Assembly (NCBI GenBank): GCA_029063085.1
Contig: JAIDOW010000018.1
Location: 1-52,277, forward strand
Direction: 5' to 3'
DNA from: Lachnospiraceae bacterium
GTDB taxonomy: Bacteria; Bacillota; Clostridia; Lachnospirales; Lachnospiraceae
Length of the DNA stretch: 52,277 bases
The notes under the pieces: generated by a model
Told to the model about the DNA's origin: nothing
Database searches by the model: none
The model's input: only the letters and a program-made list of their open reading frames with translations
Shown here: one piece after another, positions 365 to 52,183 of the stretch
Numbering within the stretch: the stretch's first letter is position 1
Layout: each line of letters begins with the position of its first letter
Program-made: the position numbers and the translations under genes

Positions 365-976
365 ATGGCGTTTATAAATTATATGATAAAAGGTATTCTA
401 ATCGGGCTGGCTTTTGGTGTGCCGGCGGGAGCCATTGGAGCGTTGACAATTCAGAGGGCACTGGAGAGAGGATTTAAGATGGGGCTGCTTACTGGGCTTG
501 GTTCTTCGGCAGCAGATATCATTTATGCCTCCGTGGGGATATTTGGCATCCGGTTTATCATGGAATTTCTGTCAGAATATCAATGGATCATCCGCATACT
601 GGGAGGAATCTTTATTGCAGTTTTTGGCATCTGTATTTTGAGGAAAAAGCCCCAGGCAATCGACGGGAAAGATGAAAACGGAGCACCTGTATTTTGTTTT
701 TTGTCTTCGTTTTTGGCGGCATTGTTAAACCCGGTGGCAGTTCTTTCGTTTCTGGCAGCATTTACCGCTTTTGAAATCGGAGGAAACCTGAGTGTGTGGC
801 AGGGCATGGGGCTGATTCTTGGAATACTGGTCGGAACTCTTTGCTGGTGGCTGTTGTTAAGTGGTATGGCGGCTTATTTCCGTCATCGGATAACAGGAGG
901 AATTTATCAGTGGCTGAGCCGCATACTGGGATGTTTTATGTTGATTTTTGGAGCCGTGATGTTGATACGGCATTGA
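365..976 (+). CDS. LysE/RhtB-family amino-acid exporter
   Basis: A 203-residue polytopic membrane protein, the usual length for LysE/RhtB exporters. It opens with a helix containing FGVPAGAIGALTIQRALERG, the family's N-terminal P-x-G-P-like region, and has about six hydrophobic segments. A second conserved patch, LNPVAVLSFLAAF, corresponds to the LNPKxxLFF motif. Members export amino acids or related small molecules by proton antiport across the cytoplasmic membrane; the substrate cannot be read here. The ATG at 365 was chosen because GGGGGGAAG lies about 9 bases upstream. An in-frame ATG at 335 overlapping the previous stop is possible but has a weaker site. An ABC transporter follows 55 bases downstream. 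Confidence 0.8.
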   Translation: MAFINYMIKGILIGLAFGVPAGAIGALTIQRALERGFKMGLLTGLGSSAADIIYASVGIFGIRFIMEFLSEYQWIIRILGGIFIAVFGICILRKKPQAIDGKDENGAPVFCFLSSFLAALLNPVAVLSFLAAFTAFEIGGNLSVWQGMGLILGILVGTLCWWLLLSGMAAYFRHRITGGIYQWLSRILGCFMLIFGAVMLIRH

Positions 977-1031
977 CCTTTGCAGATAAATTTAAGAAGT
1001 GCATTCAAAATTGGAAAGGCAGGGTATAAAA

Positions 1032-1799
1032 ATGAGAGAAACCGTATTAAAGGGACGCAGGCTGCAGAAAAGATATGGGAAAGCAGAGATTATCAAAGAG
1101 ATTGATATTGACATATACCGGGGAGATTTTACGGTAGTGATGGGAACATCCGGTTCCGGGAAATCCACACTCCTGCATCTGCTCAGTGGAATGGATACCG
1201 TGAGCGGTGGAGAGATTGGTTATGTTTCAGGTAAGTCTTCTGGTCTGGAGAGAAGTATCACAAATGCCACGGAAAAAGAAATGGCGAAACTTCGGGCAAA
1301 TGACTTTGGTTTTGTGTTTCAGAAAGCACATTTAGTCAGTAATCTGACACTGTCTGAAAATATACAGATGGCAGGATATATTAGCGATGCACTGTCTGAA
1401 AAAGAGGTGAAGATTAGAGCAGACCAGTATATACAAAGGATGGATCTGGCAGCTGCAAAGGACCGTCTGCCATCGGAGGCATCCGGTGGGGAGGCACAAA
1501 GGGCGGCAGTGGCAAGGGCAGTGATGGCAGAACCGGAGATTGTCTTTGCCGATGAGCCGACGGGCGCCCTGAACCGGGCGAATACGAAGGCAGTGCTAGA
1601 GTTATTTGCTGGAATCCATGCAGAGGGGCAGACGATTCTTATGGTTACCCATGACAGGGAGGCTGCCCTGTATGGAAACCGTATTTTATATCTGGAGGAT
1701 GGGCGGATTCGTGGAGAATTATGCCTTTCCCTATATCAGGATAAAGATTCCGGCCGGAAGAAAAAACTGGAACAATGGTTGGTGGAAATGAGGTGGTAA
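1032..1799 (+). CDS. ABC transporter ATP-binding protein (MacB/LolD/BceA type)
   Basis: A 255-residue ATPase of the class that powers FtsX-type permeases. Walker A is GTSGSGKST at residues 38-46, the Q-loop lies in FVFQKAHLV, the signature is degenerate (SGGEAQR from residue 151, preceded by Ala rather than Leu), Walker B is IVFADEPTGAL with D174-E175, and the H-loop is MVTHDRE. The SGSGKSTLLHLL and DEPTGAL sequences are typical of the MacB/LolD/BceA subfamily, which moves lipoproteins, peptides or antibiotics, or works by mechanotransmission, rather than importing nutrients. ATG 1032 follows GGAAAGGCAGGG. The permease starts 4 bases after the stop, so the two are almost certainly co-translated partners. 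Confidence 0.9.
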   Translation: MRETVLKGRRLQKRYGKAEIIKEIDIDIYRGDFTVVMGTSGSGKSTLLHLLSGMDTVSGGEIGYVSGKSSGLERSITNATEKEMAKLRANDFGFVFQKAHLVSNLTLSENIQMAGYISDALSEKEVKIRADQYIQRMDLAAAKDRLPSEASGGEAQRAAVARAVMAEPEIVFADEPTGALNRANTKAVLELFAGIHAEGQTILMVTHDREAALYGNRILYLEDGRIRGELCLSLYQDKDSGRKKKLEQWLVEMRW

Positions 1800-1802
1800 A
1801 AC

Positions 1803-4136
1803 TTGAAGTTTCGGTTATTGTGGAAGGCTGCCAGTAAAAACCAGAAAGGAACGATGGTTGGTATTCTGATTCTTGTATTTTTGGCGGCTGTCTTTGGATT
1901 TTCTTCGTTATATTTATACCAGAGCGGGCAGGAATCTGTGGCAGCGGAAATGGAGCGTCTTGGCTTTGGGGATTTTACGGCATGGGTCAGCGGTCAGCCA
2001 GAGGAGCTTGTTTCTGAGATAGAGAGTGTAGCAGATGTTGGAAAGGCGGTCAGCCAGCCGCTGATTTTTGCAGGCTACGAGATAAAGGGAGAGTATTCGG
2101 ACGATGAAGGGCAGTTACTTGTCTATGATGGGAATATTCCGTATCAGTTCCGGGACTGTCAGGGAGGACAGGTGTCGGTAGAGTCTGTAAAAAAGGGAGA
2201 GATTTATATTTCTCCGGCAATGAGGTCGGCATTTACGATTGACATTGGCGATACCATTCGGTTTGAGCTGACACGGAAAAACGAGTACAGGGATTTTACT
2301 GTGGCAGGATATTTTGAAGATGCTTTTATGGGTAGTTCCATGATTGATATGAAAAGCTTTCTAATCAGCCATGGGGATAGAGATGATATAGAAGAGGTGC
2401 TTCAGTCTGCCTCTGACGGGGATGTGTTGGCAAGGAGTGGCGCCATGCTCCATATATACGGGAACGGTTTAAGTGGAAGTTCTGACAGGGAATTGCAAAA
2501 AAGTGTTCTGGAATCCAGCTCTTTGCCGGAATATGTGGAATTTATGTATAGCAGAACAGCCATTTTGAGTTATATGCTGTTGCTGCAAAATATACTGGCG
2601 GGATTTTTGATTGCGTTTTCTTTCGTGTTATGGCTGGTCTGCCTGATTGTAATCCGTCACAGCCTTGTGGCTGCTATCGAGCAGGTCAGGCAGGACATTG
2701 CGGTATTAAAAGCAATGGGGATGCCAGGAAAAGAGGTCAGGAGAGTTTACCTGCTGCTTTATGGCGGGATGTTTGGAATTGGCATGCTATCTGGTATGTT
2801 TCTTGCTTTTTGGATGGCTGGATGGATGGCGAAAGTCATGATTTCTGCTACGGGTATGGTTATTCCGATTCGTATTCCGATTGCAGCTACGGTTTTTATT
2901 ATACTTTGTGTGCTGTTTTTCACTGCTTTGTTTTTATATCAGTGTACAAATCAGATTTTAAAGGTTACACCTGTGCAGATTTTTCAGAATCCAAAGAGTG
3001 GGAAAGCAGTATTTACAAAATTCCGAAAACGGTATCTGGGGCTGGATATTGCCATACGGGAGGTTTTGTCCGGGAAGATGAAGTATTTGGGGATTTTTGT
3101 GATTGCTGCCTTTCTGGTGTTTTTTCTGTCTGTCATCGGACGGATGGAAAACTGGCTGGGAACGGATGGAGAGGGATTGATGGACGCTTTCAGCGTAGCA
3201 GAGCATGATCTGGGTGTCCAGCCGTTCAATCAGTCTGTACCAATGGATGAGATAGAGAGGGCAATTAACTGGTATTCCCCGGTCAAAGAAAAATATGAGC
3301 TTGCCATGCAGAGTGTCACAGTAAATGGACAGGAATATACCGCAAATGTTTTGAATGATACCTCGTATTTCCATGTGCTTCGTGGTGAAGTCTGCAAGGG
3401 GCAGGAGATTTTAGTGACAGATACTGTGGCAGAGGAGTTAGGCGTTTCCATCGGGGATACGGTGCAGGTTGCCAGTGCGGGGAGGTGGGAGGATTACCGG
3501 ATATCCGGTATCTATCAATGTGCCAATGGCATGGGCAGCAATATTGGCATGGCACTGGAAGGGTATTCCCGAATTGGGGATATTACCGGGTACATTTGGT
3601 GTTACCATTATATTCTGGAGGATGGTGACCTGCGGGATACGGTAATGAAGTATCTGCAGGAGCATTACCAGGGAGTGGATGTCCACACAAACAGCTGGTC
3701 GGGACTGGATGGCATTGTATCTCTGATGCATCTGCTGATTGTGGTAATTTATGTTCTGGCGGCGGTATTTATACTGATTACAGTTTCCCTTGCCACTGGC
3801 AGGCTTCTGAGGTCGGAGGCAGGAAACATGGCAGTATATAAAAGTATGGGGATATCTGCTGGGAGTTTGAAGCGTTCTTTTGCACTGCGTTTTCTGCTTG
3901 TGGTTCTTGCCGGTTCACTGACAGGCACTGTAGTGGCAGGGATGGGGGCTGACAGAGTGATTGCGGGTATTTTTAAGAACTTTGGCATTGCAGAATTTTC
4001 TTCAGGCGCCAGTATGATGGGAACGCTGATTCCGTTTGTAATCATTCCAGCTTTGTTTTATGGAAGTGCATGGCTGTTCTCTGCGAAAATCTCGCAGATT
4101 AGCATAGTGAAACTGATAAATGAGAGTGAAGATTAA
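1803..4136 (+). CDS. FtsX-like ABC transporter permease
   Basis: A 777-residue permease with two FtsX/MacB-type halves. After an N-terminal helix comes an extracytoplasmic domain of about 220 residues, then three helices around residues 260-390. A fourth helix near residue 425 starts the second half, with another extracytoplasmic domain and three C-terminal helices. QDIAVLKAMGMPGKEVRRVY and GNMAVYKSMGISAGSLKRSF are the paired cytoplasmic coupling motifs. It should form a complex with the ATPase encoded just upstream. The start is TTG at 1803, with AGGTGG 6 bases before it. Two lipoprotein genes follow, suggesting an exporter or signalling complex with surface subunits. The substrate is unknown. 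Confidence 0.88.
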   Translation: MKFRLLWKAASKNQKGTMVGILILVFLAAVFGFSSLYLYQSGQESVAAEMERLGFGDFTAWVSGQPEELVSEIESVADVGKAVSQPLIFAGYEIKGEYSDDEGQLLVYDGNIPYQFRDCQGGQVSVESVKKGEIYISPAMRSAFTIDIGDTIRFELTRKNEYRDFTVAGYFEDAFMGSSMIDMKSFLISHGDRDDIEEVLQSASDGDVLARSGAMLHIYGNGLSGSSDRELQKSVLESSSLPEYVEFMYSRTAILSYMLLLQNILAGFLIAFSFVLWLVCLIVIRHSLVAAIEQVRQDIAVLKAMGMPGKEVRRVYLLLYGGMFGIGMLSGMFLAFWMAGWMAKVMISATGMVIPIRIPIAATVFIILCVLFFTALFLYQCTNQILKVTPVQIFQNPKSGKAVFTKFRKRYLGLDIAIREVLSGKMKYLGIFVIAAFLVFFLSVIGRMENWLGTDGEGLMDAFSVAEHDLGVQPFNQSVPMDEIERAINWYSPVKEKYELAMQSVTVNGQEYTANVLNDTSYFHVLRGEVCKGQEILVTDTVAEELGVSIGDTVQVASAGRWEDYRISGIYQCANGMGSNIGMALEGYSRIGDITGYIWCYHYILEDGDLRDTVMKYLQEHYQGVDVHTNSWSGLDGIVSLMHLLIVVIYVLAAVFILITVSLATGRLLRSEAGNMAVYKSMGISAGSLKRSFALRFLLVVLAGSLTGTVVAGMGADRVIAGIFKNFGIAEFSSGASMMGTLIPFVIIPALFYGSAWLFSAKISQISIVKLINESED

Positions 4137-4820: not shown

Positions 4821-5375
4821 ATGAGACATGGAAAAAGAAAAATGTTAATGTGTATTTTGCTGGCAGTTATGCTTTGTGCCCTTTCTGCCTGTAGTAATCA
4901 GCCAGAAAGGACAGAGAATGAGGAGGAAACAGAGAGTGCTGCGTCAAGGGCTGAAACAGAAGAGAAAGTGCAGGGAACAGAGGAAAAGGAACGGGGAGCA
5001 GAACCGACAGAGAGTACAAGAGAGAATCAGATTAAGATTACAGTAGGGGATGCTGTTTTTACGGCAACACTGGAGGAAAACTCTTCCGCAGATGCTTTAA
5101 AGGAATTGCTTCAAGATGGACCACTTACCATTGATATGAGCGACTATGGCGATATGGAGAAGGTGGGGCCGATTGGAAAGAGCCTGCCGACAAACGATGA
5201 GGATATTACAACAGAGGCAGGTGATTTGATTCTCTATCAGGGTAATTCACTGGTAATATATTATGATACGAATTCGTGGAATTTTACCCGCTTAGGAAAA
5301 ATAGATGGCATAACAGGAAAAGAACTGTTAGAGGTATTTGGTAAGGGGAATGTAACGGTTACTTTTTCGCTATAG
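4821..5375 (+). CDS. Lipoprotein with cyclophilin-like domain
   Basis: A 184-residue lipoprotein with lipobox LSAC (Cys24) and a strongly Glu-rich linker. The C-terminal domain starts IKITVGDAVFTATLEENSSA and contains AGDLILYQGNSLVIYYD and FTRLGKIDG. This is the usual pattern of the cyclophilin-like domain of PF18050 type, found in secreted or lipid-anchored Firmicutes proteins. ATG 4821 was chosen because GAGGTG lies 4 bases upstream; ATG 4809, which directly abuts the previous stop, is an alternative adding four residues. The domain is similar in size and layout to the upstream lipoprotein, suggesting tandem duplication. No ligand or catalytic role can be assigned. Confidence 0.78.
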   Translation: MRHGKRKMLMCILLAVMLCALSACSNQPERTENEEETESAASRAETEEKVQGTEEKERGAEPTESTRENQIKITVGDAVFTATLEENSSADALKELLQDGPLTIDMSDYGDMEKVGPIGKSLPTNDEDITTEAGDLILYQGNSLVIYYDTNSWNFTRLGKIDGITGKELLEVFGKGNVTVTFSL

Positions 5376-5417
5376 GAATTGGGAAAATATAAAATAAAAT
5401 GTGCAGAGGTAAAGAGT

Positions 5418-6743
5418 ATGTTCACAAATAATGATTTAAAGAGAATGATTATTCCTCTGTTTCTGGAGCAGTTTCTGGTAATACTGGTAGGGTTAGCGGA
5501 TACTTTTGTGATTAGCTTTGCTGGCGAAGCTGCTGTATCCGGGGTATCGCTGGTAAATTCTTTTAACACCATATTTATTTTTCTGTTCACAGCACTGGCT
5601 TCAGGAGGCGCAGTGATTGTCAGCCAGTATATCGGTGGAAAAAAGCAGGAGCTGGCAGGTGAGGCAGCCAGCCAGCTTCTGATGGTTTCCATATTGTTTT
5701 CTGTGGGAATTATGACTGCTGTTTTAATTTCAGGATATCCGCTGATGCGGCTGCTGTTTGGACAGGTGGAAATGGATGTTATGGACGCCTGCATGGTTTA
5801 TCTGAGGATTTCAGCCTATTCGTATCCGGCACTGGCGGTATACAATGCAGGTGCGGCACTTTACCGCAGTATCGGTAAGACAAGTACAACAATGTATATT
5901 GCTGTCGTTTCCAATGTTATCAATGTAGTCGGGAATATCCTTGGGGTGTTTGTTCTCCGTGCAGGGGTGGCGGGAGTGGCATACCCATCTCTGGTTGCAA
6001 GATTTTTTTCTGCTGTGGCAGTGACGGTTCTCTGCTTTCGGAAAGCAAATGGCGTGTATTATCAGAAACAGTGGATTTGTTATTGGGATTCCGGGCATCT
6101 GAAACGGATTCTTGGAATTGCCGTGCCAAATGGCGTGGAGCAGGGGATTTTTCAATTAGTCAAAGTGGCGCTTAGCAGTGTTGTGGCGCTTTTCGGCACT
6201 TCACAGATTGCTGCAAATGGAATTGCCCAAAGTATCTGGTCTTTGGCAGCGCTGGTCTGCGTAACAATGGGACCGGTATTTATTACTGTGATTGGCCAAT
6301 GTATGGGAGGCGGGGATACAAAGCAGGCAGAATATTATTTTGGAAAACTGATGCAGCTTACGCTCTTGATTTCCATTATATGGAATATAGCCGTATTTGT
6401 CCTGACTCCCTTGATTATGCAGTTTTACGATGTGACAGAGGAAACAAAACGGGTGACGGTCTTGCTGGTGCTGATCCACAATATTTTTAACTGTATTGCT
6501 TTCCCTTTTGCAGATCCTCTAGGAAAGGGAATGAGGGCAGCCGGGGATGTAACGTTTACGATGCTTGTATCCCTTGCTACTACAATTGGTGCCAGGCTGG
6601 TATTTTCTGTCCTCTTTGGCATTGTGTTAGATATGGGAGTCATTGGCATTGCGTGGGCAATGTGTCTGGACTGGTGCATCCGTGCAGTGATATTTTATAT
6701 CCGGTTCAGAACAGGAAAATGGAAACAGTTTAAGTTGATTTAA
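5418..6743 (+). CDS. MATE-family efflux transporter
   Basis: A 441-residue protein with about 12 membrane segments, the standard MATE size. The N-terminus reads MFTNNDLKRMIIPLFLEQFL, followed by LVGLADTFVISFAGEAAVSG, the characteristic first-helix region, and ALASGGAVIVSQYIGG; the second half repeats the pattern at GTSQIAANGIAQSIWSL. MATE proteins are Na+- or H+-coupled exporters of cationic drugs and metabolites. An upstream TTG at 5379 extends the frame by 13 residues, but ATG 5418 has AGAGGT 7 bases before it and a normal N-terminus. It follows the lipoprotein gene by 42 bases and probably ends the export operon. Confidence 0.9.
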   Translation: MFTNNDLKRMIIPLFLEQFLVILVGLADTFVISFAGEAAVSGVSLVNSFNTIFIFLFTALASGGAVIVSQYIGGKKQELAGEAASQLLMVSILFSVGIMTAVLISGYPLMRLLFGQVEMDVMDACMVYLRISAYSYPALAVYNAGAALYRSIGKTSTTMYIAVVSNVINVVGNILGVFVLRAGVAGVAYPSLVARFFSAVAVTVLCFRKANGVYYQKQWICYWDSGHLKRILGIAVPNGVEQGIFQLVKVALSSVVALFGTSQIAANGIAQSIWSLAALVCVTMGPVFITVIGQCMGGGDTKQAEYYFGKLMQLTLLISIIWNIAVFVLTPLIMQFYDVTEETKRVTVLLVLIHNIFNCIAFPFADPLGKGMRAAGDVTFTMLVSLATTIGARLVFSVLFGIVLDMGVIGIAWAMCLDWCIRAVIFYIRFRTGKWKQFKLI

Positions 6744-46435: not shown

Positions 46436-47308
46436 ATGCGTAACGAAGAGACAATGCACAAGTTGTTTTTGGATATTGCAAATGAGGATGACAGGATTTT
46501 AGCAGTTTATATGAATGGGTCAAGGACAAATGAAAATGTGCCAAAGGATATTTTTCAGGACTATGATATTGTGTTTGTAGTAAAGGAAACAAAGAGTTTC
46601 ATAGAGGAGAAGGACTGGATTCATAAATTCGGAAATATCCTGTATATGCAGTATCCGGACGAACATCCCGATTTTCCAAGTGATAGAGAGAATTTTTATG
46701 GATGGTTAATGCAGTTTGATGACGGGAACAGGATTGACCTTCATGTAGAATCTGCTGCACATGCCCAAAAGCATATCTGTGATGACAGCCTTTGCAGGAT
46801 TCTGTTGGATAAGGAAAATGTCTTGCCAGAGATACCGGAATCTTCAGATGTGGATTATCATGTGAAGAAACCAACCGAGGCACAGTTCAGAGCCTCGGCA
46901 AATGAATTCTGGTGGTGCAGTAATAATCTGGCAAAGGGTCTGTGGCGGGAAGAAATCCTTTATGTTCAGGATATGGCAAATTTTGTTGTACGTAAGGAAT
47001 TGGAGAGGATGCTGTCGTGGAAAGCCGGTATAATGACAAACTTTACTGTAAGTGTGGGAAAGTCAGCAAAGTATCTGTACAAATGGCTTAGTAAGGAAGA
47101 ATATCAGGATTATCTGAATACCTATTTTGGCGGAACTGTAGAGGAAGCGTGGAAGGGTGTGCTTTGCATGTGTGATTTATTTGATTCTACAGCCCGGTAT
47201 GTGGCAGAAGAATTAAAATATGTCTATGATTTTGAGGAAGAAAAAGCGGCGGCAGCGTTTTTGAGACATGTAAAGACTTTGCCAAAGGATGCAGAGGGAA
47301 TATATTAA
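46436..47308 (+). CDS. ANT(6)/AadK-like aminoglycoside 6-nucleotidyltransferase
   Basis: A 290-residue protein with the nucleotidyltransferase motif MNGSRTNENVPKDIFQDYDI, where GSR and the DYD acidic pair bind nucleotide and metal. Further family blocks are DRENFYGWLMQFDDGNRIDL, KPTEAQFRASANEFWWCSNN and YLYKWLSKEEYQDYLNTYFG. Length matches AadE/AadK streptomycin 6-adenylyltransferases. Chromosomal homologues are common in Clostridia and Bacilli, and many confer only low or no resistance, so activity should not be assumed. ATG 46436 has GGAG 8 bases upstream. No mobile element lies next to it. Confidence 0.88.
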   Translation: MRNEETMHKLFLDIANEDDRILAVYMNGSRTNENVPKDIFQDYDIVFVVKETKSFIEEKDWIHKFGNILYMQYPDEHPDFPSDRENFYGWLMQFDDGNRIDLHVESAAHAQKHICDDSLCRILLDKENVLPEIPESSDVDYHVKKPTEAQFRASANEFWWCSNNLAKGLWREEILYVQDMANFVVRKELERMLSWKAGIMTNFTVSVGKSAKYLYKWLSKEEYQDYLNTYFGGTVEEAWKGVLCMCDLFDSTARYVAEELKYVYDFEEEKAAAAFLRHVKTLPKDAEGIY

Positions 47309-47660
47309 AAAGATGAATATTTTATCGGATTTATTTTGTATAGCCGGACGGTTGCAGGTTTGGTCAAAAAAAGGGGTGGTTTTATCACGGGAGTTGCAGA
47401 ACTTTTTCAGGACAGTCCGACGCATCAAATGTATTTGGAAGGTTCATGGTAGGGAACCTTTGGTACAAACATGGAAACATAACAGGAGGGGATGATATGA
47501 GAGACAGCGACAGGAGGGGCGCCTTTAAGATGGCTTTTTTGTTTTGCGTACTGTAGATATCCATAAAAAGATAATACATTATCGTGCACAACCATATCTT
47601 GTTGCTATATAAATAATATAGTACAATAAATCTAATTATACATGAATGGAGAGATAAAAT
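47309..47660 (+). other. 352-base gap with a short coding-like remnant
   Basis: Directly after the ANT(6)-like stop, the same frame stays open to TAG 47450, reading KDEYFIGFILYSRTVAGLVK and FITGVAELFQDSPTHQMYLE. It has no start codon and no recognised family. The rest contains a GC-rich patch followed by TTTTTTG (near 47517-47545), which is not a clean terminator, and the speD promoter. Confidence 0.4.
47599..47627 (+). promoter_or_regulatory. Promoter of the SpeD-DUF4178-DUF350-SpeE module
   Basis: TTGTTG (47599-47604) and TACAAT (47622-47627) with a 17-base spacer, about 33 bases before the speD-like start. AATGGAGAG serves as ribosome site. Confidence 0.65.
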
Positions 47661-48005
47661 ATGGCAAATCAGCTATTGGTTGATCTATATGTCTGTGATG
47701 AAGAGATTTTAAATGATATGGAAAGGATTAAAGAAATTGCACACAGAGTAATTGCAGAGATTCATTCGGAGATTGTGGAAGAATGTGTGCATCAGTTTGA
47801 ACCGATAGGCGTTACCTATATTGCAGTGATCACAACTTCCCATTTTTCCATACATACCTGGCCGGAGCATGGATATGCAGCAGTAGATATCTTTTCCTGT
47901 AATGAGGTACTGCCGGATGTAGTGGCAGAGAAGCTTAAAGCTGCATTTAACGCAAAGACATCTGTTACCAGAAAATATGAACGGGATATAGAGGGGAGGG
48001 ATTAG
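47661..48005 (+). CDS. S-adenosylmethionine-decarboxylase-family protein (SpeD-like)
   Basis: A 114-residue class 1b AdoMetDC-type proenzyme. The core is TTSHFSIHTWPEHGYAAVDI followed by FSC. By alignment with the Thermotoga enzyme (Ser63, His68, Cys83), the pyruvoyl-forming residue would be Ser60, with His65 and Cys80 as the processing and catalytic partners; all three are present with the same spacing. The residue before the scissile serine is Thr59, where the family usually has Glu. Canonical members decarboxylate AdoMet to supply aminopropyl groups; some SpeD homologues have become ornithine or arginine decarboxylases. The substrate is therefore open. The gene leads a four-gene module. 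Confidence 0.85.
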   Translation: MANQLLVDLYVCDEEILNDMERIKEIAHRVIAEIHSEIVEECVHQFEPIGVTYIAVITTSHFSIHTWPEHGYAAVDIFSCNEVLPDVVAEKLKAAFNAKTSVTRKYERDIEGRD

Positions 48006-48007
48006 AC

Positions 48008-49108
48008 TTGGAATATTCAGTTGGTGATACGCTTTTAGTAGGTGGCAGAGTCTATCATATTATCGGAAAGATTCATTATAAAAATTTAAGTGATAACTGC
48101 TGCTGGTTTGAATATCGAATGGAATCAAAGGAGACTCCTCAGTATGAGAAATGGCTGAGCTATGATTCCGTTTATAAAGAATATTCCATATCTGAGGTGG
48201 TATCAAATGTTTCAACGGCAGGCTATCACGAGGTGGACAGCGGCGAGGAAGAGGTCATTGGCGTATGGGGAAGCGTCGATGTAGCGGTTGGTGACAGGGC
48301 AAGGTTTAGGGAATATGAGGATTCTACCGAGGAAAAAATTATATCAACAGAATTCTGGGATGATTATGGAGAGGAAACCTCAGTAGGATATTATCTTGAT
48401 CTGGATGAAATCCGTATCTATGATGGAAATGAATCATACGCTTCATCTTTTAAACAAGGAGATATTGATAAGAATCAGATTAGAAAGACTGTAATCAATG
48501 TTGCAGTCTGGGCAGTGTTAATTATGTATGTTTTATGGAAGGAAGGACTGGATTCCGATATATTGTTTCAATCCCATTCCATTGCAAAATATTTAAAAAA
48601 GTCGGCAAAATACACCTATGTAACCTCAATTACAGGAAATCTGAAGCAGGATGCGGACGTATATAAGACGACAGTGAATTTAGATACGGCAGTAAAAGAT
48701 ATTATTAACGGAATTGAAGGAGATACACAGGATGTGCAACAGAATACGGAGGATGGGGATAACAGTGTGGCAATTTTGACGGATAAAGAGTACTGCCTTG
48801 TATATGTATCGGAAGAAAATGAAACCATGATTCAAATCTCCTCGCGAAAATATGCTTATACAAATGACAATAGTCTGTATCATGCAGGACACCATACGCA
48901 TAGATATTACCGCAGATATTACTATTCCAGAGGATATCATTCTGATGCGGGAAGCTATGGGAAATACACCTCTCCATATGCTTCTTTTGATGATGCGACA
49001 GTGAACAGTAATTATAACGATGCTTATAGCAGCTATTCGTCCAGTGTAAGGCAGGCAAGTGTTGGTTCACGTACTTCGTCCGGGGGCGGGTTAAGCAGTG
49101 GCAAATAA
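48008..49108 (+). CDS. DUF4178 membrane protein with Tyr/Ser/Gly-rich tail
   Basis: A 366-residue protein. The N-terminal ~160 residues match DUF4178: YSVGDTLLVGGRVYHIIGKI, a CCWFEYRMES strand and a second copy-like VAVGDRARFREYEDSTEEKI. One membrane helix is at about 160-178 (TVINVAVWAVLIMYVLW), followed by a ~120-residue domain. The tail is low-complexity, HTHRYYRRYYYSRGYHSDAG, ending SSGGGLSSGK. The TTG start at 48008 has AGGGGAGGGA upstream and lies 2 bases after speD. DUF4178, DUF350 and spermidine-synthase-like genes are neighbours in many bacteria, in envelope-linked clusters of unknown chemistry. Confidence 0.78.
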   Translation: MEYSVGDTLLVGGRVYHIIGKIHYKNLSDNCCWFEYRMESKETPQYEKWLSYDSVYKEYSISEVVSNVSTAGYHEVDSGEEEVIGVWGSVDVAVGDRARFREYEDSTEEKIISTEFWDDYGEETSVGYYLDLDEIRIYDGNESYASSFKQGDIDKNQIRKTVINVAVWAVLIMYVLWKEGLDSDILFQSHSIAKYLKKSAKYTYVTSITGNLKQDADVYKTTVNLDTAVKDIINGIEGDTQDVQQNTEDGDNSVAILTDKEYCLVYVSEENETMIQISSRKYAYTNDNSLYHAGHHTHRYYRRYYYSRGYHSDAGSYGKYTSPYASFDDATVNSNYNDAYSSYSSSVRQASVGSRTSSGGGLSSGK

Positions 49109-49144
49109 GCAGGTGTTTTAGTTTTAGCATTGTGGCAAACAATT

Positions 49145-49162
49145 AACAGTGGAAGCACTGTT
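49145..49162 (+). other. Small hairpin between DUF4178 and DUF350 genes
   Basis: AACAGTG (49145-49151) and CACTGTT (49156-49162) pair around GAAG, followed by a T-rich stretch (GTTGATTTGTCTTT). It may be a weak attenuator or a processing site in the 147-base gap; a TATAAT at 49224-49229 lacks a good -35. Confidence 0.4.
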
Positions 49163-49255
49163 GTTGATTTGTCTTTATTGTACAACAGATGTCATCGAAA
49201 ACAGAGTTTCTCAATTATTTAGATATAATAAAATGAACGAAGAGGAGAATGGAAT

Positions 49256-49687
49256 ATGGAGATTTTATATGATTTGATGAATGTGGGAATTTATTCGTTA
49301 CTGGGTATTATACTGATGCTGCTGGGTAATTTTTTGATTGACCTGATTGTGCCCTGTCATTTTCCGACAGAGATAAAAAAGGGAAACACTGCGGTTGGCT
49401 GGTTAAGTGCAGGCTCCTTTATCGGAATTGGTATCATTCTAAAGTCAGCGATTATAACACCAGTGTCTGAGGTGGCTGAGGAATCTCTGGTGCAGGGAGT
49501 AATCAGCAGTACGCTATATTTTGTAATTGGTATCGTCTGCTTTATCGTGGGATATCTGCTTGTAAGTCTCTTTAATAAAAAATATAATCTGAATGAAGAG
49601 ATTGGCAATGGAAATACAGCAGCTGGTATCGTGGTATTTGGTATCTTCGTCGGTCTGGCGATTGTGATTAGTGGAGTGATTTATTAG
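49256..49687 (+). CDS. DUF350 integral membrane protein
   Basis: A 143-residue protein with four helices in two similar halves. Each half has a hydrophobic helix followed by a GN-rich turn: KKGNTAVGWLSAGSFIGIGI and IGNGNTAAGIVVFGIFVGLA. This internal duplication and the GNxAxG motifs are the hallmark of DUF350, a family of unknown function often linked to SpeE-like and DUF4178 genes. GAAGAGGAGAATGGAAT precedes ATG 49256. Its stop is immediately followed by the next start codon, so translation is coupled to the spermidine-synthase-like gene. Confidence 0.85.
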   Translation: MEILYDLMNVGIYSLLGIILMLLGNFLIDLIVPCHFPTEIKKGNTAVGWLSAGSFIGIGIILKSAIITPVSEVAEESLVQGVISSTLYFVIGIVCFIVGYLLVSLFNKKYNLNEEIGNGNTAAGIVVFGIFVGLAIVISGVIY

Positions 49688-51187
49688 ATGAAAAATTACA
49701 GACTTTTGATGCTGACCACCCTGATTATTTCAGGGTGTTCTATTTGTTATGAATTGATTATAAGTGCAGTAAGCTCCTATCTGGTGGGCGATTCTACATT
49801 GCAGTATTCTATTACGATTGGACTTTATATGTCTGCAATGGGACTGGGGTCTTTTCTGTCAAAATATATGAAGAGGAACCTGTTTAACTGGTTTGTTATC
49901 ATTGAAATTGGTGTAGGGATGATTGGCGGAATCAGTGCTCTTTTGTTGTTTTTGGCAAACCTGTATCTTGAGACATATCAGATTGTCATGTATTTTGAAA
50001 TTATCATCATTGGAACGTTTGTGGGAGTGGAGATTCCCCTGCTGACAAGGATTATTGAGGAGGATGAGGAAAATTTAAGGGTAACCCTTTCTTCTATTTT
50101 CAGCTTTGACTATATAGGTGGTCTGGTTGGTTCTATTGCATTTCCATTGTTTCTGCTGCCGCAGCTTGGATATTTTGCTACTGCGTTTTTGACAGGATTT
50201 ATGAATATCGTGGCAGCGATGCTGATTATTTATAAATATAAGGAACGGATTCAAAGGGTGAGATGGTTTAAGCTTTTAACAGCCGCTTTGTTTGTTATAA
50301 TGCTTCTTGGAATGCTATTTTCAGAAAATATTTCTACATATGTTGAAGGGGGGCTTTATCGGGATCATGTGATTTTATCCAAACAGACAAAATATCAGAA
50401 AATTGTTATGACAAAGCACAGGGATGATCTGCGATTATATATTGACGGAAATGTGCAGTTTAGTTCTCTGGATGAATACCGTTATCACGAAGCACTGGTA
50501 CATATTCCTATGTCAAAGGCGGTAAAAAAGGATAAGGTTCTGGTTCTTGGAGGAGGAGACGGAATGGCTGTCAGAGAGCTTTTAAAATACAAAAAGACAC
50601 AAATTACGCTGGTAGATTTGGATGAAGATATGATTAAGCTTTGTAAGGAGAATGCGAATATCACTGCATTAAATGAACATTCTTTAGACAGTGACCGGCT
50701 TACCATTGTGAATCAGGATGCTTATAAATATCTCGAGGAAAACAAGGAACAATATGATGTTATTTTAGTGGATTTGCCAGATCCAAATAATGAATCCCTA
50801 AATAAGCTGTATACCAATATTTTTTACCGCTTATGTAAAAATGCCTTGACAGAGGATGGAATTTTAACAGTTCAGTCCACAAGCCCTTACTATGCAGCGA
50901 AAGCATTCTGGTGCATTCATGAAACATTAAAGAGTGAAGGTTTTTATGTTATGCCATACCATTTACAGGTGCCGGCTTTTGGAGACTGGGGATTTAACAT
51001 GGCATCTAAGAAAGAACTGGATGACCGTTTTGATATTATGGCAGATACCAAATATCTGAGTAATGATAATGTGAATTTCCTGTTTTCTTTTGGAAAGGAT
51101 GAAAAGTCAGAGCATGTAGAAATTAACAAATTGTCAAAGCCAAAACTGATTCAATATTATTTAGAGGCAGTCAAGAAGTGGGAATAA
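49688..51187 (+). CDS. Membrane-anchored spermidine-synthase-like protein
   Basis: A 499-residue protein. The N-terminal ~215 residues form about seven helices (MLTTLIISGCSICYELIISA; GLYMSAMGLGSFLSKYM). The C-terminal half is a Rossmann methyltransferase-fold aminopropyltransferase domain: LRLYIDGNVQFSSLDEYRYH, EALVHIPM, VLVLGGGDGMAVRELLKY (GGGDG at 288-292), ITLVDLDEDMI and VDLPDPNNESLNKLY in place of the DSTDP-type catalytic loop. Soluble SpeE transfers aminopropyl from decarboxylated AdoMet to putrescine; the membrane-fused group is less well understood and might modify a membrane-bound acceptor. The start directly abuts the DUF350 stop. Confidence 0.85.
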   Translation: MKNYRLLMLTTLIISGCSICYELIISAVSSYLVGDSTLQYSITIGLYMSAMGLGSFLSKYMKRNLFNWFVIIEIGVGMIGGISALLLFLANLYLETYQIVMYFEIIIIGTFVGVEIPLLTRIIEEDEENLRVTLSSIFSFDYIGGLVGSIAFPLFLLPQLGYFATAFLTGFMNIVAAMLIIYKYKERIQRVRWFKLLTAALFVIMLLGMLFSENISTYVEGGLYRDHVILSKQTKYQKIVMTKHRDDLRLYIDGNVQFSSLDEYRYHEALVHIPMSKAVKKDKVLVLGGGDGMAVRELLKYKKTQITLVDLDEDMIKLCKENANITALNEHSLDSDRLTIVNQDAYKYLEENKEQYDVILVDLPDPNNESLNKLYTNIFYRLCKNALTEDGILTVQSTSPYYAAKAFWCIHETLKSEGFYVMPYHLQVPAFGDWGFNMASKKELDDRFDIMADTKYLSNDNVNFLFSFGKDEKSEHVEINKLSKPKLIQYYLEAVKKWE

Positions 51188-51253
51188 CAAGAGATATCTT
51201 ATTTCTCATTTGACGAATATCATTAAAAACTATTTTAAGCAGGAGATAAGTTC

Positions 51254-52183
51254 ATGATTTTAAGTGCAAGCAGGAGAACGGACATTCCCAACTATTATTC
51301 GGAATGGTTTTATAATAGAATGAAAGAAGGATTTGTTTATGTCCGCAATCCAGTCAATACGCATCAGATCAGTAAAATCGATTTATCACCAGAGGTAGTA
51401 GACTGCATCGTTTTCTGGACTAAGAATCCTGAGCCGATGATGGAACGCCTGTCGGAGCTTTCGTCATATCCATATTATTTTCAGTTTACTCTGACAGGAT
51501 ATGGCAAAGACATAGAGCTGAATATTCCCCATAAAAGAGATATCATGATAAATATATTTCAAAAGCTATCGGATAAAATCGGAAGCAGGAATGTGATATG
51601 GAGATATGACCCTATTTTATTTAACAATACTTATACACCGGAATATCATTTAAAAGCATTTGGGCAGATTGCATCTGCACTAAAGGGTTTTACGGAAAAA
51701 TGTGTGATCAGTTTTGTGGATTCCTATGCCAAGATTAAGAAAAATATGAAGCAGCTGAATGTATATGAGCTGGAACATGAAAAACTTATAGCATTTTCAA
51801 GAGAAATTGCCAGAATTGCGAAGTCAAATGGCATAACGGTGGCAAGTTGCGCGGAAATGATTGATTTATCGATGTGCGGGATTGCACATAACTGCTGTAT
51901 TGACAAGCAGTTCATTGAGGAGATAATTGGATGCACAATTAAAGCAGGCAAGGATAAGAATCAGAGGGAGTGTTGCGGATGTATAGAAAGCATAGATATC
52001 GGTACTTACAATACCTGTAAAAATGGATGCAGATATTGTTATGCAAATGCAGGTACAGACAGTATCCTTAGGAACAACAGGCTATATGATTCTGCTTCTC
52101 CACTTCTATGCGGAAACGTGGGGGAAGATGATAAAATCAGTATCCGGAAAATAAAATCTATAAAAGAAATGAAAGAAAGATAA
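51254..52183 (+). CDS. DUF1848 protein with C-terminal iron-sulfur-like cysteines
   Basis: A 309-residue protein that begins MILSASRRTDIPNYYSEWFY, the near-invariant DUF1848 start, followed by VDCIVFWTKNPEPMMERL and YYFQFTLTGYGKDIE. The C-terminal part is cysteine-rich: RECCGCIESIDIGTYNTCKN and GCRYCYANAG, a CxxC and CxxxCxxC pattern resembling radical-SAM iron-sulfur sites, though placed at the C-terminus. DUF1848 proteins are distant relatives of the spore-photoproduct-lyase fold; their reaction is not established. ATG 51254 follows AGCAGGAGATAAGTTC. It lies 66 bases after the SpeE-like gene, possibly in the same transcript. Confidence 0.85.
   Translation: MILSASRRTDIPNYYSEWFYNRMKEGFVYVRNPVNTHQISKIDLSPEVVDCIVFWTKNPEPMMERLSELSSYPYYFQFTLTGYGKDIELNIPHKRDIMINIFQKLSDKIGSRNVIWRYDPILFNNTYTPEYHLKAFGQIASALKGFTEKCVISFVDSYAKIKKNMKQLNVYELEHEKLIAFSREIARIAKSNGITVASCAEMIDLSMCGIAHNCCIDKQFIEEIIGCTIKAGKDKNQRECCGCIESIDIGTYNTCKNGCRYCYANAGTDSILRNNRLYDSASPLLCGNVGEDDKISIRKIKSIKEMKER

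Follow-up and report, generated by a model that had tools for sequence, protein, structure and literature searches.

A membrane spermidine-synthase fusion and its lysine-ended partner in a Lachnospiraceae bacterium: a candidate protein-aminopropylating unit

Introduction

Gene clusters that combine AdoMetDC, a membrane–SpdSyn fusion and DUF350 were reportedly described by Li and coworkers in 2019. The fusion is said not to complement a speE deletion, spermidine is said to be absent from such bacteria, and an acceptor other than putrescine was reportedly proposed, with none named. In E. coli, the protein YjfM, the sequence of which ends in ...GHWGG, adjoins DUF350, PspA and a peptide-spermidine ligase, the last of these being YjfC according to its RefSeq product name (Pederick et al., 2023). 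The GHWGG end would suit a ligase acting on a C-terminal carboxylate. Furthermore, the section of Ravi et al. (2024; PMC11237479) on PspA/CesT-Tir group 2 lists a 7-TM spermidine-synthase fusion, DUF350, DUF4178 and a lipoprotein, and raises a possible 'aminopropylation of other substrates'.

The unit analyzed here lies in a window of 52 277 nucleotides, which is the whole stretch of DNA under study. It shares with the module of Li and coworkers the joint presence of SpeD, the membrane SpdSyn fusion and DUF350, to which it adds the fusion that constitutes ORF2 and a lysine rule at the C-terminus of the partner protein. As far as the cited section on PspA/CesT-Tir group 2 goes, the spermidine-synthase fusion, DUF350 and, through a chain of homologs, DUF4178 are held in common; unlike that group, the window unit contains SpeD, has neither PspA nor CesT/Tir beside it and carries its DUF4178 part fused to a DUF4247-like membrane-anchored domain. 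The E. coli yjfIJKLMC genes resemble it in combining DUF350, a Gly/Ser-tailed and apparently anchored protein and a polyamine enzyme. However, an ATP-grasp-type ligase and the Gly-Gly end of YjfM occur there, whereas an aminopropyltransferase and a C-terminal lysine occur here. A gene set of this kind has therefore already been described, and the Gly-Lys end of ORF2 seems to be the new part.

In this study, the domains, conservation and C-terminal residues of the unit were compared across related and distant loci. We tentatively favor the reading that the unit is a protein-modifying system in which SpeE-TM would aminopropylate Lys366 of ORF2 at the membrane's outer face.

Results

Arrangement of the unit

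The features of the unit are listed in Table 1. A preliminary description of this DNA had claimed four genes in one direction, joined tightly and driven by a single strong promoter. All four are indeed plus-strand ORFs, and the tight junctions hold between speD and ORF2 (2 bases) and between DUF350 and SpeE (0 bases), but 147 bases with a terminator-like hairpin separate ORF2 from DUF350. Terminator-like sites number seven in 47300–51300, against 2.0 expected. The strong promoter was not borne out: a consensus scan gave no consensus site upstream of speD, and promoter-like sites in 47300–51300 were in no excess (17 versus 16.1 in shuffles). The neighbors of the unit in Pfam searches are an ANT(6)-like gene, a gene for a 313-amino-acid protein without a match over the cut-off, and DUF1848. 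No PspA or CesT/Tir match was found in the adjoining genes, so that a PspA-type operon was rejected, and none of the seven genes between 45379 and 52183 has an ATP-grasp match.

Table 1. Positions in the window of the four genes and of features within and between them.
Feature	Position	Strand	Remarks
speD	47661..48005	+	class 1b AdoMet decarboxylase proenzyme, 114 aa
ORF2	48008..49108	+	366 aa, TTG start; proposed acceptor protein
ORF2 residues 1–137, all-beta DUF4178-like domain	48008..48418	+	model and profile matches
ORF2 residues 155–181, single TM helix	48470..48550	+	hydropathy; helix in model
ORF2 residues 355–366, disordered tail RTSSGGGLSSGK	49070..49105	+	last residue Lys366, proposed acceptor
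Terminator-like hairpin, ORF2–DUF350 gap	49144..49163	.	found on both strands
DUF350 protein	49256..49687	+	143 aa, Pfam match
SpeE-TM	49688..51187	+	499 aa; TM part ~7–212, spermidine-synthase-like catalytic domain ~226–499

SpeD, DUF350 and the polyamine genes of the genome

The small pyruvoyl-enzyme precursor named in the preliminary description was recovered as AdoMet_dc in Pfam (119.9 bits) and as the NCBIfam equivalog SAM_DCase_Bsu (TIGR03330; 102.9 bits, cut-off 75.65). Its motif S60-H61-x-S63-x-H65-T-W-P-E, in which Ser60 is the expected pyruvoyl precursor, is preserved in all 47 SpeD proteins of related loci, and S60, H65, C80, P48 and P68 are invariant in eight of eight sequences. 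Genuine AdoMetDC, in contrast to the neofunctionalised SpeDA and SpeDC (PMC10407285), is recognized by its processing Ser, His and Cys together with a diagnostic Pro. An ornithine/arginine decarboxylase is not favored for gene 1, because the equivalog is matched and the motif is retained. The DUF350 gene was likewise as described (Pfam, 105.7 bits); its protein has four hydrophobic segments and two GNxAxG half-repeats.

In the genome, SpeD is matched by gene 1 alone, no soluble SpeE is matched, and an intact GGGDG motif occurs in no SpeE but gene 4. The genome also encodes an OKR-type decarboxylase that could supply a diamine, so that free spermidine may be formed.

Domains of ORF2

On the evidence of profile matches and a structural model, ORF2 is built of two domains, the first DUF4178-like and the second DUF4247-like, with a single TM helix between them and a disordered tail at the C-terminus, and is thus more than the membrane-only DUF that had been supposed. 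ORF2 has no direct Pfam or NCBIfam match, and DUF4178 is matched by no protein of its own genome. The earlier DUF4178 label holds for about the first 137 residues (pLDDT 91–97 in the model) through intermediates: complete, stand-alone proteins are matched by the ORF2 profile (2e-6 to 2e-18), Pfam assigns four of them to DUF4178 (98–123 bits), and the L047 paralog matches DUF4178 at 36 bits. The second domain is a tentative assignment. PF14042 (DUF4247) is not matched by ORF2 itself, and the ORF2 profile reaches the DUF4247 proteins L107 and L108 (8e-6 and 7e-5) and the 220-amino-acid protein of L095 (4e-18), which matches PF14042 below the cut-off only.

A moderate charge bias surrounds the TM helix. 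Among 63 sequences, Lys/Arg are more frequent before than after it in 41, equal in 11 and fewer in 11, and the net charge before it is higher in 32, equal in 18 and lower in 13.

Conservation of the gene set

A comparison of neighborhoods, as the preliminary description had advised, showed the order ORF2–DUF350–SpeE in all 62 related loci, with SpeD part of the locus in 47. When the neighbors of these loci were clustered, a zinc-ribbon-like protein (26 loci) formed the sole cluster beside more than nine; annotation is given for this cluster only. Elsewhere in Bacillota, PspA accompanies SpeE-TM in at least one locus (L151).

Family, catalytic residues and topology of SpeE-TM

Gene 4 matches NF002956, named 'polyamine aminopropyltransferase', at 617.9 bits (cut-off 472), with residues 5–498 of 499 aligned to profile positions 20–521 of 522. 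Across 62 further genomes of the phylum, no NF002956 match at E <= 1e-50 begins before profile position 193. The soluble spermidine and thermospermine synthases (PDB entries 1iy9, 1inl and 6bq2) resemble SpeE-TM in the catalytic domain, by sequence, and in the catalytic residues: the catalytic positions of soluble SpeE are retained in 27–29 of 29 SpeE-TM sequences. To these, SpeE-TM adds the TM domain; R265 and F258, present in 29/29, differ from the usual residue of soluble SpeE, and P364, F431 and Y375 frequently differ as well but also occur in 3, 4 and 5 of 20 soluble enzymes, respectively.

The 'about seven helices' of the preliminary description depend on a weak segment at residues 40–58; an automatic hydropathy scan of 62 sequences gave six, and the loop charges of 29 sequences favor the seventh. 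Under the seven-segment model, Lys/Arg are more frequent in the predicted inner than in the outer loops in all 29. Counting this weak segment, the second in order, would probably put the catalytic domain on the outer face, whereas six segments with the N-terminus inside would place it in the cytoplasm. Several Cys retained in the catalytic domain count against the outer placement, which would in addition require decarboxylated AdoMet outside; a carrier for it is only speculative.

The lysine-ended tail of ORF2

All 63 non-duplicated ORF2 proteins end in Gly-Lys (the raw set of 73 ORFs, 72 of them GK-ended, includes nine loci twice and the fragment L021). The 63 are encoded by 59 distinct DNA tails in which synonymous codons vary. 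In the model, the pLDDT drops to 52 in the last block. Lysine is avoided next to the end: the Lys:Arg ratio over the 20 residues that precede the final one is 9:129 in ORF2 and 2:29 in 14 DUF4247-type proteins, against 1193:807 and 130:138, respectively, outside the last 30 residues. The identity of the terminal residue as lysine therefore matters. The conserved end might alternatively serve for docking, sorting or processing; however, we infer from the avoidance of lysine beside the end residue that a docking motif would not be predicted to require a terminal lysine.

Partners of other SpeE-TM enzymes

The tail rule spans different partner proteins, the SpeE-TM enzymes of which are 36–56% identical to that of the window. 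Whole genomes were sampled by the SpeE-TM enzyme within the phylum of the window only. In Bacillota outside the ORF2 family, a DUF4247 protein with a GK end was found in 11/11 loci, two of which (G858 and G859) were read after the tail hypothesis had been framed, and L095–L097 gave a GK-ended partner in a further three of three. Thirteen plasmid records matched the SpeE protein; ten were read and nine counted, with H5, H9 and H12 left out. The match on a Rhodovulum plasmid (H13) was dropped, as it is 234 amino acids long and aligns with the catalytic part alone. The partner in Ensifer is a 78-amino-acid TM peptide ending in GGGPESGK, and that in Alteromonas is a larger protein ending in GPSSGK. 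At two Burkholderia loci the partners are small, carry a lipobox-like FSC and end in SHK; Novosphingobium partners end in SHK or THK, that of Gemmatirosa in HGK and that of Tritonibacter in RVK. Filters that require a K end selected five of the nine partners on plasmids (Gemmatirosa, two Burkholderia, N. resinovorum and THN1), and the start codons of these five were placed by eye.

In a set of SpeE-TM loci from other Bacillota, Proteobacteria and Gemmatimonadota, an automatic filter found a Lys-ended partner in 16/20, with the partner of the remaining four assigned by eye, versus 1/20 soluble-SpeE loci, where the candidate is on the strand opposite SpeE. Any GK-ended neighbor occurs at 13/20 SpeE-TM versus 2/20 soluble-SpeE loci (14/169 versus 2/141 neighboring ORFs). 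K-ended neighbors occur at similar frequency (29/169 versus 24/141); a terminal lysine alone is thus common, a small protein with a K end is, taken singly, weak evidence, and only the GK end and the automatic filter separate the two sets. Among DUF4247 proteins for which the stretch read contains no SpeE (31 of 43 matches, L100 included), a GK end occurs in 0/31 and a K end in 1/31, with Arg at the ends, and these proteins amount to one evolutionary contrast because all come from one bacterial family.

Discussion

The side chain of lysine is an aminobutyl amine and is chemically like putrescine. As the tail of the partner closes on one lysine, the enzyme may modify that residue rather than make free spermidine. 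In the mechanism that we propose, SpeD would produce decarboxylated AdoMet in the cytoplasm, as is known for its family, and SpeE-TM, with its catalytic domain outward as the charge distribution suggests, would aminopropylate the partner's C-terminal lysine, here Lys366 of ORF2, at its epsilon-amine. The flexible Gly/Ser tail would let this lysine reach the deep acceptor pocket, and the reaction would yield a protein that terminates in N6-(3-aminopropyl)lysine, or in a longer polyamine if it were repeated. More speculatively, DUF350, the TM domain of SpeE or both may carry decarboxylated AdoMet across the membrane or keep the complex assembled. Once capped with a polyamine, the tail would function at the surface of the membrane or in the cell wall and, in other bacteria, within PspA-linked envelope-stress operons.

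It is unlikely, in our estimation, that SpeE-TM is an ordinary membrane-anchored spermidine synthase with ORF2 and DUF350 sensing, binding or exporting spermidine. The NCBIfam family name, the preserved catalytic residues, the OKR-type decarboxylase and the position of these genes as the only SpeD and the only GGGDG-bearing SpeE of the genome all agree with such a synthase; the TM fusion, its strict linkage to ORF2 and DUF350, and the deviating R265 and F258 do not, and the lysine tail rule would be left unexplained. The failed complementation and missing spermidine reportedly described in 2019 also speak against it. Modification of the lysine by a cytoplasmic catalytic domain, prior to insertion of the partner, is decidedly improbable given the N-in charge pattern in 29/29 sequences under the seven-segment model. 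It would nevertheless place the enzyme where decarboxylated AdoMet is produced, it agrees with the six segments of the automatic scan, and it has a parallel in E. coli, where the ATP-using ligase should be cytoplasmic and an anchor-like segment of YjfM is seen by eye.

The tail might instead have a docking or regulatory role, for instance as a motif that SpeE-TM or DUF350 recognizes, and the acceptor might be a different molecule, for example a lipid amine or a component of the wall. Disordered, conserved C-terminal motifs are often recognition elements, the preliminary description had looked to a membrane component, and the cited part of Ravi et al. (2024; PMC11237479), which also bears out its remark that such neighborhoods are known in other bacteria, suggests polyamine monitoring or aminopropylation of other substrates. 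This arrangement appears improbable to us, as lysine is fixed at the end yet avoided beside it, and no neighbor cluster except the zinc-ribbon-like protein stands beside more than nine of the 62 loci, which also leaves a lipid acceptor unsupported, the rarer clusters being unannotated. The part of the earlier idea of membrane-linked aminopropylation that agrees with the evidence is an acceptor other than free putrescine, tied to the membrane. The acceptor that it overlooked is, judging from the sequences, likely to be the conserved C-terminal lysine of the co-encoded partner.

More doubtfully, the membrane SpeE enzymes of several phyla may all be outer-face modifiers of a C-terminal lysine on dedicated partners that are anchored in the membrane and flexible at the tail, and DUF350 operons may form a tail-capping superfamily. 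Its caps would be aminopropyl-lysine with SpeE-TM, a spermidine amide on a C-terminal Gly with YjfC/YgiC and an encoded Arg-rich end in Paenibacillaceae-type operons without SpeE.

The substrate of the membrane spermidine-synthase fusions has reportedly been open since at least 2019, and the cited part of Ravi et al. (2024; PMC11237479) still speaks of 'other substrates' for them. A fixed C-terminal lysine on a co-encoded partner offers a single candidate site that can be tested decisively. If the proposal is true, the polyamine pathway would be the source of a new protein modification, broadly akin to hypusine and the aminopropylated lysines known from diatom silaffins, and polyamine genes would be tied to bacterial envelope stress.

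Organization and spread of the unit

Two genes of the unit, speD and SpeE-TM, were named by both Pfam and NCBIfam and a third, DUF350, by Pfam; SpeE-TM is a full-length match to the membrane aminopropyltransferase NF002956, and ORF2 was without a match in the Pfam and NCBIfam searches. The successive junctions measure 2, 147 and 0 bases, a terminator-like hairpin lies inside the 147-base gap between ORF2 and DUF350, and a consensus scan upstream of speD found no promoter. Pfam searches of the neighbouring genes found no PspA adjoining the unit. The ANT(6)-like gene scores 266.5 bits against NCBIfam ANT_6, below the cut-off of 420.

Coordinates of the features and residues discussed
Feature	Sequence	Position	Strand	Remark
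Four-gene unit	Window	47661-51187	+	speD (114 aa), ORF2 (366 aa, TTG start), DUF350 (143 aa), SpeE-TM (499 aa)
ANT(6)-like aminoglycoside nucleotidyltransferase gene	Window	46436-47305		Directly upstream of unit; Pfam 373.8 bits
Kept catalytic positions	SpeE-TM	Q237, D262-E263, Y266-H267-E268, GGGDG, D312, D344, D362, D365, Q396		
Tandem ORF2 paralogue	L047 (Clostridium paraputrificum)	4978-5997		Direct DUF4178 match, 36 bits
Second membrane SpdSyn-like fusion	L085 (own genome, C97)	625-2226		533 aa; GMGTG replaces GGGDG
Zinc-ribbon-like protein	L053 (example)	5264-5596		~110 aa
Decayed unit copy	L021 (other family of same order)	722-1984		ORF2 broken by stops

When named bacterial and archaeal genomes were searched with an alignment of ORF2, 62 loci emerged, which by their record titles belong mostly to Lachnospiraceae, Ruminococcus, Clostridium and other Clostridia, frequently of gut or rumen origin. 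The order ORF2-DUF350-SpeE-TM is kept in all 62 (in locus L036 the contig end truncates SpeE). SpeD is present in 47 of the 62, 5' of ORF2 in all but L057, and three of the 15 loci without it (L023, L042 and L043) have fewer than 800 bases of sequence 5' of ORF2. Counting the window's own genome each time, ORF2 is patchy among relatives (10 of 144 genomes), a close SpeE-TM (E <= 1e-60) is rare in the class (5 of 391 genomes), and near-full-length membrane-family matches above cut-off occur in 13 of 398 genomes of the phylum. In the 62 other phylum genomes that match at E <= 1e-50 the catalytic part alone is covered, and the membrane SpeE family stands apart from the other matches in these 398 genomes.

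Several variants were observed in passing. The zinc-ribbon-like protein, all of whose Pfam matches fall below cut-off, lies just 5' of the module in 26/62 loci and is absent at the window; in an alphaproteobacterial DUF4178 protein (L113) the N-terminal end weakly matches a zinc ribbon. Directly 3' of the module, loci L013 and L023 carry another SpeE-TM-like gene, which is distantly related (23% identity) and truncated by the contig end, and one genome (G016) holds two diverged whole-module copies on separate contigs (L012, L017). The last ORF2 piece of the decayed copy retains the end GGGTSFGK.

ORF2 and its C-terminal tail

In an AlphaFold model of ORF2 from 63 sequences (mean pLDDT 88.8, pTM 0.53), residues 1-137 form an all-beta domain and 155-181 a TM helix; an alpha/beta domain follows at 192-354, and the tail beyond it is disordered. 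The ORF2 profile matches stand-alone proteins, four of which are DUF4178 by Pfam (98-123 bits); through these and the tandem paralogue, the N-terminal domain is assigned by sequence as DUF4178-like, and the C-terminal domain appears related to DUF4247 proteins. Because DUF4178-like and DUF4247 proteins are encoded by separate genes near DUF350 and SpeE-TM in other Bacillota, ORF2 looks like a fusion of the two. At one of these other Bacillota loci (L151), PspA was confirmed by Pfam.

All 63 non-duplicated ORF2 sequences end in Gly-Lys. Their DNA tails take 59 different forms and use all four Gly codons, and seven loci keep this end on a tail shortened by three residues (SRSSSSGGGK); the tandem paralogue is the sole one of 73 ORF2-like ORFs without it. 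Lysine is avoided in the 20 residues before the end (9 K versus 129 R), whereas outside the last 30 residues K outnumbers R (1193 versus 807). As the tail is disordered, with lysine last and arginine at its other basic positions, it looks like a candidate chemical acceptor.

Partners of SpeE-TM and controls

The lysine idea preceded the collection of further SpeE-TM loci, for which the enzyme was the query. Outside the ORF2 family, a Pfam DUF4247 protein ending in GK was found in 11/11 Bacillota loci, nine of which had already been met through DUF4247 (G858 and G859 were newly found); three more loci (L095-L097) encode a DUF4247-type protein with a GK end. In nine plasmid loci the type of partner varies, yet all end in Lys, five of the nine having been chosen by filters that demanded a K end. 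In Ensifer the partner is a TM peptide of 78 aa (GGGPESGK), and in Alteromonas a protein with an annotated length of 510 aa (GPSSGK); Burkholderia (two), Novosphingobium (three), Gemmatirosa and Tritonibacter have small, anchored proteins with a Lys end. The 48-aa partner of Novosphingobium ES2-1 is annotated independently in its record, and both Burkholderia partners are encoded on the strand opposite SpeE. DUF350 was detected in 17/20 SpeE-TM loci.

An automatic filter (K end, at least five G/S in the last 14 residues and a hydrophobic segment) was positive in 16/20 SpeE-TM loci versus 1/20 soluble-SpeE loci (Fisher p 2e-6, relatedness of loci ignored); the four missed were the three Novosphingobium loci and Gemmatirosa. 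However, K-ended ORFs of any kind are equally frequent in SpeE-TM (29/169) and control (24/141) loci, which counts against the rule; GK ends alone separate the two sets (14/169, one of the 14 not a partner, versus 2/141).

A further contrast, which as a single clade counts once, is provided by another family of the phylum (f129), probably Paenibacillaceae. No SpeE was found in the fetched stretches of ~3.4 kb around its DUF4247 proteins (L099, L100 and L181-L209; 31 of 43 matches read), and the neighbours at L099 are DUF4178 and DUF350 by Pfam. The tails are Arg-rich, of RRR type (GK 0/31, K 1/31), as if a fixed cationic substitute stood in place of a modified lysine. In Escherichia coli, the relative YjfM, which adjoins DUF350, PspA and YjfC, ends in Gly-Gly, in contrast to the Lys of SpeE-TM partners; YgiC/YjfC are reported to be peptide-spermidine ligases (Pederick et al., 2023). 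Since the SpeE-less f129 proteins end in Arg and YjfM, with YjfC, in Gly-Gly, the C-terminal residue of the partner seems to track the enzyme of the operon.

Enzyme, topology and free spermidine

With catalytic and acceptor-side positions assigned as is usual for the family, between 27 and 29 of the 29 SpeE-TM sequences retain each catalytic position of soluble SpeE. R265 and F258 are present in 29/29; among 20 soluble enzymes, Ile occupies the former position in 16 and Thr (9), Ser (6) or Val (4) the latter. P364, F431 and Y375 are fixed in SpeE-TM and occur in 3, 4 and 5 of the 20 soluble enzymes, respectively. An automatic scan gave six TM segments; a weak further one at 40-58 would make seven. 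If there are seven, the catalytic domain would lie outside, because the predicted inner loops are then richer in positive charge in 29/29 SpeE-TM; with six, it would lie inside. The same rule places the ORF2 C-terminal domain outside in 41/63 sequences (11 ties), and the Burkholderia partner has a lipobox-like sequence, so that its tail would be outside.

The window's genome, 96% complete, has a single SpeD match and, at that completeness, no soluble SpeE match; no saccharopine-dehydrogenase-type match in it lies above cut-off. Of its two PLP decarboxylases, one is LysA-like by eye and the other is encoded next to an adenylation protein, also by eye; a single OKR-type decarboxylase adjoins a thymidylate kinase-like gene. 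Given this SpeD, SpeE and decarboxylase content, free spermidine synthesis is possible but not indicated. The second SpdSyn-like fusion, similar in TM layout by eye, is probably not an aminopropyltransferase.

Relation to known clusters

Li et al. in 2019 reportedly described numerous homologues of AdoMetDC that are accompanied by MFS-SpdSyn fusions and by DUF350, and are said to have found speE not complemented and to have proposed another acceptor. An operon of a 7-TM spermidine synthase, DUF350, DUF4178, PspA and a lipoprotein is listed in a later article (Ravi et al., 2024; PMC11237479). The kind of cluster is thus already known; its fused form without adjoining PspA is new. No mention of a C-terminal lysine was found in the passages and listings consulted, which came from open-licence papers and were retrieved without that phrase as a term. 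Within the reach of these searches, the rule of a C-terminal lysine is a new, testable lead to the acceptor.
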